Virus record (IMG/VR): IMGVR_UViG_3300028388_002021
Span: 10,792 to 34,321 of that record
Reading direction: 5' to 3' (one strand)
Origin: a virus
Length of the DNA stretch: 23,530 bases
This document shows, piece by piece, positions 5,498 through 7,755 of the stretch. A model generated the notes under the pieces. That model saw only the letters and a program-made list of their open reading frames with translations. It was not told where the DNA came from and searched no databases. Made by a program: the position numbers and the translations under genes. Positions within the stretch are counted from its first letter, which is position 1; every line of letters starts with the position of its first letter.

Positions 5498-5617
5498 ATG
5501 TACAAGCGGCCAAAAATCAGATCGCACAAAATGGAAGCATACAAACCGCTAGCGCCGTGGATCGGGCTTGATGCGTACAAGTTCGCACTCGCGGAATTCT
5601 ACGGGGTGATCCAATGA
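5498..5617 (+). CDS. 39-residue protein of unknown function
   Basis: A short gene with good translation signals: GGGAGG four bases before ATG 5498, and a stop that overlaps the RecT-like start as ATGA. It starts one base after the exonuclease stop. The product is basic at the N terminus (MYKRPKIRSHK) and contains the aromatic-rich LDAYKFALAEFYG. It has no membrane segment or known motif. The coupling suggests it is translated together with the exonuclease and annealing protein; a small helper for either is a guess. Confidence 0.7.
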   Translation: MYKRPKIRSHKMEAYKPLAPWIGLDAYKFALAEFYGVIQ

Positions 5618-6636
5618 AACTATCAGAAAAAGCGAACGCTGCTAATGCGGCGCAGGAAGTAAGCGATCTGTTGCCAGTGCCTGTGAAAAACTCAGGCGGT
5701 GCGAGTCTGTACCTCGACAGCAACAGGTTCAACCAGGCGTACAAAGCAGCGCGCCTGCTGGCACAAGCTGGCGAGATGGTGCCGAAGCATTTCCAGGGCT
5801 CGTGGGAAAAGTGCTTCGTTGCCCTTGAGCTTGCGGACCGATTTGGGATGAGTCCGTTCGCAGTCATGCAGCGGGTGTACGTGGTTCACGGCAGGCCAGG
5901 CATGGAGGCCAAGCTGAAGATCGCACTGGCCAACCAGCGCGCGCCCATCAAGGGCTGTATCAACTACGACATCGAGCAGGCAGACGACGGACGTATCCTC
6001 GGGTGCACCGCATACGTAATCCTGAAGGACACAGGCGACCGCGCAGAGATGACCGTCACACGCGAGATGGTCGAGGCAGAGGGGTGGCACAAGCCGAAGC
6101 CAAAGTGGTCATGGCGCGACGGGAAGAAGTTCCGCGATGGAGAAATCCAGTCCAAGTGGGTCACGATGCCGGAGCTGATGTACCGCTATCGCTCCGCGTC
6201 CATGCTCATCGACACTCACTTCCCGGACGTGGTGATGGGCATCCGGACCGTCGAAGAAATCGAGGACATCGAGGTCAGCGAACTCGAATCCACGCCAGCA
6301 GAGCCACCGCCAGAACCCGTGGTCGAACATGTCGATGCCGTCGTCGTGCCAGATGAACCCGTCGACGAAAAGCCTGAGTCTGGACAGGTCGAAATCGCCA
6401 CCACACCGGTCGAAAACAACACCAAAGACGACGCGGAGAGTCGAAAAAAAAAGTTCTCCGAGGCTCTTGCCTGGGCTGACGACTGGGGAGTACCGCAGTC
6501 GGAGGTGGACATCGTGGTCAAATCTCTGGACATCAAGCCGAACGACGCCCGCACCATGACTCCGGACCGGCTCGCTGAGTTATCCGGAAAAATCGGAGAA
6601 CTGGCGGATAACTACGCCGGGCCGCCGAAGGGTTGA
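5614..6636 (+). CDS. RecT/Bet-like single-strand DNA annealing protein
   Basis: A 340-residue protein whose first 220 residues look like a phage single-strand annealing protein. The stretch ADRFGMSPFAVMQRVYVVHG, followed by KLKIALANQRAPI, an EMTVTREM strand, PELMYRYRSASMLI and DVVMGIRTVEEIED, matches the recurring order of RecT-family proteins (LGxxPxxAxQxIxVIxGRP ... MLxYRAxSxLxR ... PDVVxGxxTxEE). These proteins coat ssDNA and anneal complementary strands in homologous recombination and replication restart. The C-terminal third is a long acidic, proline-rich linker (about 225-275) and a small helical domain that may contact partners. It ends the P1 operon with the exonuclease and the 39-residue gene. 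Its stop lies inside the -35 box of promoter P2. The family assignment is by motif recall only. Confidence 0.8.
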   Translation: MKLSEKANAANAAQEVSDLLPVPVKNSGGASLYLDSNRFNQAYKAARLLAQAGEMVPKHFQGSWEKCFVALELADRFGMSPFAVMQRVYVVHGRPGMEAKLKIALANQRAPIKGCINYDIEQADDGRILGCTAYVILKDTGDRAEMTVTREMVEAEGWHKPKPKWSWRDGKKFRDGEIQSKWVTMPELMYRYRSASMLIDTHFPDVVMGIRTVEEIEDIEVSELESTPAEPPPEPVVEHVDAVVVPDEPVDEKPESGQVEIATTPVENNTKDDAESRKKKFSEALAWADDWGVPQSEVDIVVKSLDIKPNDARTMTPDRLAELSGKIGELADNYAGPPKG

Positions 6637-6661
6637 CAAGCTGGCGCCGCCATGGTATCCT
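6633..6661 (+). promoter_or_regulatory. Predicted promoter P2 for the replication operon
   Basis: TTGACA (6633-6638), 17-bp spacer ending in TGG (extended -10), TATCCT (6656-6661). The -35 is perfect and the -10 matches 4 of 6. Its -35 covers the stop codon of the RecT-like gene. The expected first base, G6668, is exactly the first base of arm A1 of leader 2, as for P1. Confidence 0.7.
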
Positions 6662-6667
6662 GACAGA

Positions 6668-6770
6668 GTCATGCACGACGTATGCTCAAACTAGTTGGTT
6701 AGCTACCCCATGGTGGGCTGGTGCTCGCCTCTGCGTGCATGACACGCCGGTCCACCATGGGGGGCTTTTT
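6668..6770 (+). promoter_or_regulatory. Leader RNA with intrinsic terminator and competing or pseudoknot pairing (leader 2)
   Basis: B1 at 6706-6716 (CCCCATGGTGG) pairs perfectly with B2 at 6752-6762, followed by GGC and five T: an 11-bp intrinsic terminator with a 35-nt loop. A1 at 6668-6677 (GTCATGCACG) is the exact complement of A2 at 6734-6743 in that loop. Order A1-B1-A2-B2-T run and the start of A1 at the predicted +1 match leader 1. A1 and A2 differ from leader 1 at two positions each, and both differences keep the base pairs. The initiator gene begins 10 bp after the T run. The 6688-6698 stretch AAACTAGTTGG recurs at 20903. Confidence 0.78.
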
Positions 6771-6780
6771 GGGGATCACA

Positions 6781-7755
6781 ATGGCTAGATATCGAAAAAT
6801 AGATCCGCGAATGTGGGGCGATGCGAAGTTCCGGAGGCTGTCAAAAATACAACCGTCTGGCCAAGCTCTGTTTTTGTACCTGCTATCTGGCCCACACACA
6901 ACAAGCCTACCAGGGCTTTATCATATCGGGCCAGCAACTGTGTCCGAGCGGCTCGGGTGGGATCTGGAAGCCACAAGGGAAGCCTACACGGAAGCCTACA
7001 CGGAAGGCTTGATTGAGGTAGACGCAGAGGCATGCGTAACGAGTGTACCGAACGCGATAAAGTACAATCCTCCGGAGTCACCTAACGCAGTTCGCGGGTG
7101 GTCTGCCAGTATCGACGAGATACCGGAGTGTGGCCTCAAGACGAAGCACATTGAGCACATTAGGGACTATCTGATGTCCGATCAATTTGCGAATTCTGGC
7201 AGCCAAAACGGCAGCATACGCAACCCAGACCCATACATTGAGGCGATGGGTAAGCCTACACGGAAGCCTACACGGAAGCCTACACGGAAGCCTACACGGA
7301 AGCCTACACGGAATCAGGAGCAGGAGCAGGAGCAGGAGCAGGATAAAGATCTACCCACCAAACCTGAAGCAGTAAAAAAGACAAAGAAAGCCCGAAAACC
7401 ACACCCGGCAGAGACACACCGGATCGCCCTGCTCGCACTCAGGGCCAGGTACCACGAAAAGCGCGGCTTACCGCCACCGGAAAATGGAATCCAGAAGGAC
7501 GACCACATGAGGCGAGTCGCCAAGGTGTTGGGCGAAAAGGGGATTGAATACTGCGAGGCACTGATTGACGCGCACGCAAAAGAGCACAACGGGGACGGCG
7601 CAGATTCCAAGTTCGCCCCGTGGTACTTCGCATTCCCGAGCATTTACGACAACGGCAAGCCGAAGAAAAGAATCCCCGCCTATGAGCGCATGGACCCGAT
7701 TGTAGCCAAGGGACAGAAAAAAGAATTCGTGCCTGCGTACTGGCGCAATGAATAA
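6781..7755 (+). CDS. Phage replication initiator-like protein with internal iterons
   Basis: A 324-residue protein beginning ARYRKIDPRMWGDAKF, then LFLYLLSGPHTT and GLYHIGPATVSERLGWD, a pattern typical of the winged-helix N-terminal domain of phage replication proteins (O-like and DnaT/DnaD-like). Residues 67-75 are EAYTEAYTE and residues 158-177 are five KPTR units, followed by QE repeats; both sets are encoded by the same 12-bp DNA repeat in different frames. The C-terminal part (about 190-324) is basic, then contains HMRRVAKVLGEKG and KFAPWYFAFPSIYDN, as in loader-type replication proteins. It heads the P2 operon and lies two genes before a DnaB-like helicase, so it probably binds the origin and brings in the helicase. 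Start ATG 6781 has only a weak GGGGAT upstream; an earlier in-frame start would lie inside the terminator. Confidence 0.8.
   Translation: MARYRKIDPRMWGDAKFRRLSKIQPSGQALFLYLLSGPHTTSLPGLYHIGPATVSERLGWDLEATREAYTEAYTEGLIEVDAEACVTSVPNAIKYNPPESPNAVRGWSASIDEIPECGLKTKHIEHIRDYLMSDQFANSGSQNGSIRNPDPYIEAMGKPTRKPTRKPTRKPTRKPTRNQEQEQEQEQDKDLPTKPEAVKKTKKARKPHPAETHRIALLALRARYHEKRGLPPPENGIQKDDHMRRVAKVLGEKGIEYCEALIDAHAKEHNGDGADSKFAPWYFAFPSIYDNGKPKKRIPAYERMDPIVAKGQKKEFVPAYWRNE
6979..7002 (+). repeat. Two 12-bp iterons, first cluster
   Basis: Two perfect head-to-tail copies of GAAGCCTACACG (6979-6990 and 6991-7002), followed by a truncated GAAGGC. Within the initiator gene this frame reads EAYT. The same 12-mer returns at 7251-7310 in another frame. 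Confidence 0.9.
7251..7310 (+). repeat. Five 12-bp iterons, second cluster (candidate origin)
   Basis: Five tandem copies of GAAGCCTACACG, the first with one mismatch (T for G), at 7251, 7263, 7275, 7287 and 7299. They read as KPTR here and as EAYT in the first cluster, so the DNA rather than the peptide appears conserved. Repeats inside an initiator gene resemble the lambda O arrangement. An A-rich stretch (7340-7390) follows and could be the unwinding region. Confidence 0.9.
7315..7338 (+). repeat. CAGGAG hexamer repeat
   Basis: Four tandem CAGGAG copies and a partial fifth directly after the iterons, encoding alternating Gln-Glu. It could be simple slippage or part of the origin. The following 50 bases are rich in A. 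Confidence 0.85.

Follow-up and report, generated by a model that had tools for sequence, protein, structure and literature searches.

A probable replication origin of frame-independent iterons and a purine-rich hexamer tract inside a phage initiator gene

Introduction

The origin of bacteriophage lambda (ori-lambda) maps inside the O gene (PMC5043065). In bacteriophage SPP1, gp38 binds direct repeats that lie within its own gene and adjoin an unwinding element, and the phage also encodes gp40, a helicase of the DnaB family (PMC6316719). Iteron plasmids place a winged-helix initiator on direct-repeat iterons beside a DUE with short repeats of its own, and the DnaA-trio and the (R)ATCA repeats of V. 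cholerae ori2 are short tandem motifs of the unwinding region, located next to double-strand sites and bound as single strands by the initiator (PMC10797057). Origins inside initiator genes are already known, as are iterons in several reading frames: those of lambda occupy three frames of O (offsets 0, 2, 2 and 1).

The locus described here lies within a window of 23,530 nt, the whole stretch of DNA that was analysed, in which an earlier note had proposed a probable replication origin inside an initiator gene. To our knowledge, replication origins have hardly ever been located in uncultured phages. A signature that is independent of reading frame, such as the one described below, would allow origins to be placed in many of their genomes.

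The initiator gene and its product

The initiator gene is carried on a 34.3-kb virus contig, between genes for a RecT-like protein and a DnaB-like helicase. Coordinates are those of the window.

5614-6636, + strand: RecT-like annealing protein (PHROG 561, E 2.7e-56; Pfam RecT), part of the same replication/recombination module
6633-6661, + strand: promoter-like element TTGACA-17-TATCCT upstream of the initiator gene, 10 of 12 matches
6781-7755, + strand: replication initiator gene, 324 aa (PHROG profiles, AlphaFold2)
6964-7002, + strand: codons 62-74, third helix of the predicted winged helix, at the position of the CRP recognition helix
8520-9773, + strand: DnaB-like replicative helicase (PHROG 19, E 1.2e-78; Pfam DnaB_C)

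The start codon is ATG 6781, where the family alignment begins, rather than the GTG 6721 of the open-reading-frame list. The product matches PHROG 25711 (E 8.8e-22) and PHROG 1701, 'DnaD-like helicase loader' (E 3e-21), the latter profile being matched by all 30 aligned relatives; by these profiles the supposed initiator is indeed a phage protein of the initiator or helicase-loader type. Pfam reports just a weak 'PT disordered repeat', and a PDB sequence search with the initiator returned weak matches only (e.g. ribosomal protein eS25). The DnaB-like helicase is the likely loading partner of the initiator.

The protein consists of a winged-helix N-terminal domain, a disordered linker that is encoded by the repeat array and a separate C-terminal part. 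The AlphaFold2 model shows a winged helix at residues ~8-135, with pLDDT mostly 86-98 in the N-terminus, followed by a disordered segment overlapping the encoded array (residues 163-207, pLDDT below 50) and an uncertain C-terminal part. A Foldseek search with the full-length model gave no significant match, whereas the N-terminal domain alone retrieved CRP-type winged helices and viral replisome organizers, the best viral structural match being a 'Replisome organizer' (E 2.7e-7). Residues 14-93 of the model superpose on the DNA-binding domain of CRP/Vfr (VIA-align) with an r.m.s.d. of 1.9 over 69 residues and a Z score of 7.8, a value below 8 that can reflect merely a common arrangement. On this model, the second half of the predicted DNA-recognition helix is encoded by the first of the two repeat clusters described below.

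In the relatives L007, L067, L073, L114, L190 and others, the C-terminal parts that follow the array match PHROGs 16167, 678, 270/9474, 345 and 428/1163; matches to PHROG 345, 'replication initiation O-like', occur in some relatives and not in the window protein. From these sequences, domains seem to have been swapped at or after the putative origin while the N-terminal domain and the array stayed. The promoter-like element is followed by a hairpin (region 6633-6774, -49 kcal/mol, z -3.2) that ends in GGCTTTTTGG before the initiator ATG. The region has no Rfam match, and the hairpin may be an attenuated leader or a small RNA near the origin.

The repeat array of the window

Two clusters of 12-nt iterons and a tract of hexamers are arranged along the gene as follows.

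6967-7014, + strand: iteron cluster 1, four 12-nt units in the EAYT frame, exact at 6979 and 6991 and degenerate at 6967 and 7003
7251-7310, + strand: iteron cluster 2, five tandem 12-nt units in the KPTR frame
7312-7314, + strand: AAT preceding the hexamer tract, present as AAT in 45 of 58 homologues with the tract
7315-7344, + strand: purine-rich hexamer tract (CAGGAG)4 CAGGAT, read QEQEQEQEQD, the proposed unwinding/loading element
7374-7390, + strand: A-rich stretch AAAAAAGACAAAGAAAG, not conserved as such

The 12-nt unit GAAGCCTACACG occurs in seven copies with one mismatch overall: copies at 6979, 6991, 7263, 7275, 7287 and 7299 are exact and the copy at 7251 (TAAGCC...) carries the single mismatch. 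The exact part of cluster 1 (6979-7002) is translated as EAYTEAYT and cluster 2 as five KPTR, in different frames of the same gene, exactly where 12-bp repeats in two frames had been noted earlier. That account of cluster 1 was correct for the two exact copies and missed two further degenerate units which flank them on the same 12-nt lattice (GAAGCCACAAGG at 6967 and GAAGGCTTGATT at 7003). With up to two mismatches allowed, the window contains eight matches to the unit, a number reached by none of 100 dinucleotide shuffles. The longest identity between the clusters across frames is 29 nt; the maximum was 17 in 1000 codon permutations that held the protein and its codon counts fixed.

The last core of cluster 2 is at 7300 and the hexamer tract starts at 7315. 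The tract comprises four CAGGAG copies (7315-7338) and a fifth, degenerate CAGGAT (7339-7344). The four repeats had been recorded before as following the array; they are present and are more than a flank, belonging to a second conserved element, (CAGGAR)n. The A-rich segment, also recorded before, is found at 7374-7390 and may aid unwinding; it is not conserved as such, relatives being just ~4% richer in AT over the 30 nt immediately downstream of the tract. The tract itself is 50-67% GC, and a classic AT-rich unwinding element is not evident beside the iterons. The 50-bp segment of lowest stability in a span of several hundred bp starts close to the tract in about one third of homologues, which fits an unwinding role weakly.

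The iteron of the window has diverged from that of its family (CCTAC instead of CCTTC) in an otherwise ordinary member. Exact AAGCCTACACGGAAGCCTACACGG does not occur in IMG/VR, so that the array of the window has no near kin in that collection. The nearest relatives on the tree are L190 and L218; cluster 1 of L190 contains another locally homogenised unit, GAAGGCATACGG, in three copies with a degenerate fourth, again in the recognition-helix codons.

Conservation as DNA

Relatives were gathered as 80 IMG/VR loci (with NQEQEQEQ among the search peptides), 36 loci found with a frame-blind DNA pattern, 55 loci from genome assemblies of bacteria and archaea found by N-terminal search only and 80 further viral matches to the N-terminal domain. 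Combined, they yielded 67 non-redundant genes (<80% N-terminal identity), including that of the window. The assembly loci include Burkholderiales, Stenotrophomonas, Desulfovibrio, Spirochaetes and Planctomycetes MAGs. Among small replicons, a single record carries the initiator, the 47.7-kb E. coli plasmid CP100067.1. In a Thermoplasmata archaeon MAG, two equal-scoring copies of the initiator (L137 and L138), of the type reading GT at the tract (see below), share one contig; they more likely reflect a prophage or binning than an archaeal gene.

Among the 67 genes, the core RAAG(C/G)CTT recurs at 12-nt spacing at both cluster positions. Its reading in relatives is EAF in cluster 1; in front of NQEQEQEQ it is KAF/EAF or KPS. 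Since the IMG/VR search peptides included NQEQEQEQ, prevalence is best taken from the set found by N-terminal search only, where three or more hexamers occur in 21 of 28 non-redundant genes, and iterons together with the hexamer tract in 20; the array is thus largely kept with the protein, and the proposal of the earlier note has stood its own check, that relatives keeping the protein should not lack the repeat. In the other eight of these homologues, collected without array bias, hexamers, iterons or both are missing as defined, and the family's two phages in the named-phage collection, Chris1 and pPE4, are without the tract and have degenerate repeats only. By itself, the iteron motif has no diagnostic value, because a pattern of three AAGSCTA also matches many unrelated KP-rich proteins.

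Selection on the DNA was assessed by permuting synonymous codons within each of the 67 genes, with protein and codon counts unchanged. AAG(C/G)CTT was observed 108 times in the KPS frame (20.8±4.1 after permutation), 213 times in the EAF frame (51.2±6.3) and eight times in the SL frame (1.4±1.2). When tandem duplication was discounted by counting one site per gene, the motif was present at cluster 1 (EAF) in 52 of 67 genes, against 20.6±3.6 after permutation, and at cluster 2 in 37 against 13.2±2.9 (KPS) and 38 against 20±3.3 (EAF). Codon choice is correspondingly skewed: proline in the KP repeats is encoded by CCT in 89 of 99 cases (228 of 1448 elsewhere in the same genes) and alanine in cluster 1 by GCC in 86 of 93 (767 of 2063 elsewhere). 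The two clusters of a gene tend only weakly to carry matching iteron variants (p 0.03 and 0.05), which is suggestive at most. Cluster 1, too, is conserved as DNA, and may have an accessory or looping role.

The hexamer tract provides natural frame variants. (CAGGAR)n is read QEQEQE in most genes and GTGTGT in six relatives (L073, which equals L118, L087, L097, L114, L137 and L375), and the frame-blind search retrieved genes with ...EALPEAL...ESGTGTGT rather than ...KPS...NQEQEQ. In L087, L097, L114 and L118 another frame of the tract DNA still spells NQEQEQ; the DNA of the tract has thus outlasted the protein repeat, in whose place another reading now stands. The GT state requires at least four separate changes on the tree of the N-terminal domain, bootstrap trees included. 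What is conserved irrespective of frame is thus a pair of DNA elements, iterons and hexamers, in largely fixed geometry within a replication-protein gene. Hundreds of related phages keep the DNA pattern, even where its protein reading is altered, so that DNA and not protein is preserved at the array; synonymous-codon tests in 67 homologues and frame variants together bear out the proposal of the earlier note that selection acts on the DNA.

The number of hexamers varies from 2 to 11. The distance from the last AAG core to the tract is 15 nt in 33 of 54 QE genes and three of four GT genes, and the iteron registers relative to the tract are almost only 12k+3 and 12k+2 (129 and 77 of 228). Four genes (L146, L147, L170 and L233) have tracts read NPEPEPEPE, QEPEPDPEP, KKKEKKEEK or QQQQQ, which are possibly intermediate or decayed hexamers.

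A second initiator family

A pattern search with the CCTA variant of the window led to initiators of another kind (LGYTWYPKDWG...). This second family was gathered by N-terminal peptides only and comprises 80 loci (L376-L455), corresponding to 29 non-redundant genes, from low-GC phages. An hhalign comparison of the two families, for which both alignments were shallow, found no similarity. AAGCCT is in excess in all frames of the 29 genes (101 against 22±3.9, 16 against 3.4±1.5 and 10 against 1.3±1.0), and the proline following lysine at these sites is encoded by CCT in 106 of 110 cases. The start of a CAAA-led purine-rich tract of the (T/G)AGAAA type lies 15 nt downstream of the last core in 44 of 44 distinct arrays with that anchor, many of them close kin. 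In L423 and L428 the arrays have AAACCT over most of their length, as if the whole array had changed together.

Origin function and alternative explanations

The sequence evidence makes it probable that the initiator gene carries the phage replication origin, with a product that would bind the iterons and a tract that would act as the opening or loading site. The proposal of a probable origin is in this way supported as an intragenic origin of the lambda/SPP1 type; from the conserved arrangement we infer that the product binds the iterons, that the tract is the opening/loading site and that replication starts there. The winged-helix N-terminal domain would bind the 12-bp-spaced iterons RAAG(C/G)CTN (here GAAGCCTACACG), with the five-copy cluster 2 as its main site; the iterons of cluster 1, in the codons for the recognition helix, would be accessory. 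Once assembled, the initiator would open or hold the purine-rich hexamer tract, 15 nt past the last iteron, and its C-terminal part, perhaps with partners, would load there the DnaB-like helicase encoded 765 bp downstream.

The GC-skew minimum of the 34.3-kb contig (15,185, window ~4,394) lies ~2.9 kb away at a change in gene orientation and speaks neither for nor against an origin at the array. Mean GC skew over 2 kb on each side of the tract shows no sign change in 40 relatives, and no DnaA boxes were found within 1 kb of the array, with two loose matches elsewhere in the window.

Among the alternatives, the one that survives best, although we regard it as unlikely, is that the repeats are operators at which the winged-helix protein or another regulator controls transcription of the initiator gene, the origin being elsewhere. 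Binding to iterons is frequently also regulatory in plasmids and the N-terminal domain has a CRP-like winged-helix fold; the arrays, however, lie 200-530 nt into the coding region, away from the promoter-like element at 6633-6661, and downstream of them, at a preferred phase, comes another DNA element, for which operators have no need. Autoregulation and origin function could also go together. It is less probable still that the hexamer tract works in mRNA, its Shine-Dalgarno-like AGGAG/AGGAA repeats causing pausing or internal initiation. AGGAG is indeed contained in CAGGAG and an anti-Shine-Dalgarno effect would be frame-independent, but in-frame starts 3-15 nt past the tract are not enriched (5 of 58, against 12 of 58 at a control position), and the AGAAA-type tracts of the second family are not Shine-Dalgarno-like, yet keep the same 15-nt phase. 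Tandem duplication or slippage, or a repetitive linker maintained for its amino-acid sequence (KPxx and QE repeats), without any DNA function, has the least to recommend it: units of 12 and 6 nt are multiples of three, copy number varies and Pfam sees only a weak disordered repeat, but this reading is contradicted by the synonymous-codon permutations, by one core that recurs within a single gene at distinct positions and in more than one frame, by frame-changed relatives in which the DNA is kept and the protein repeat lost, and by the preferred spacing.

Beyond the origin assignment, we put forward tentatively, as somewhat less than an even chance, that the 12-nt RAAG(C/G)CT lattice, the 15-nt interval and the hexamer array form a widespread origin cassette, present in at least two initiator families between which no sequence similarity is detected; the conserved unit would be the DNA of the cassette and not the protein. 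If so, genes change frame through the cassette and swap C-terminal domains after it, and its hexamers would act as a sequence-specific element for opening or helicase loading of a kind not known before. The family offers clear natural cases of a DNA site dictating protein sequence, in the tract read QEQEQE or GTGTGT and in the iterons, which occupy codons of the very helix predicted to recognise them. It also becomes testable whether, in GC-rich phages, a short hexamer array replaces the AT-rich unwinding element.

Comparison with known systems

In the literature searched, in which subscription papers were thinly covered, the CAGGAR tract and the origin of the first family are not described. 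We judge as new with respect to that literature the iteron of the first family, the frame-independent hexamer tract with its preferred phase, the recurrent changes of frame through it and the occurrence of the same layout in a second family.

The locus resembles lambda O in having an internal origin with a winged-helix-type DNA-binding part, iterons, a strand-asymmetric opening region and a C-terminal part. Lambda has four inverted-repeat iterons of 18-19 bp and a 40-bp AT-rich region, whereas here the units are 12-nt direct repeats, the hexamer tract is GC-neutral and at a preferred phase, and the phage has its own DnaB-like helicase. Comparison of the N-terminal-domain profile with lambda O detected no homology (E 0.09, score below 0). 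With SPP1, compared by description, the locus shares repeats of the origin-binding protein inside its own gene (oriL) and a phage-encoded DnaB-family helicase; SPP1 differs in its AT-rich DUE, in having a further origin (oriR) and in using gp39 as a distinct loader. The plasmids RK2, F, R6K and P1 are similar in their direct-repeat iterons, winged-helix initiator and adjacent short-repeat region; their origins lie outside coding sequence, with an AT-rich DUE and different initiators. The DnaA-trio (tandem 3'-(G/A)AT-5', bound by DnaA) and (R)ATCA repeats are motifs of three or five bases that serve host initiators, and by analogy the hexamer tract may be their functional counterpart. Binding of an initiator to iterons, followed by opening or loading at an adjacent site, is the scheme of both lambda and SPP1 (PMC5043065, PMC6316719).
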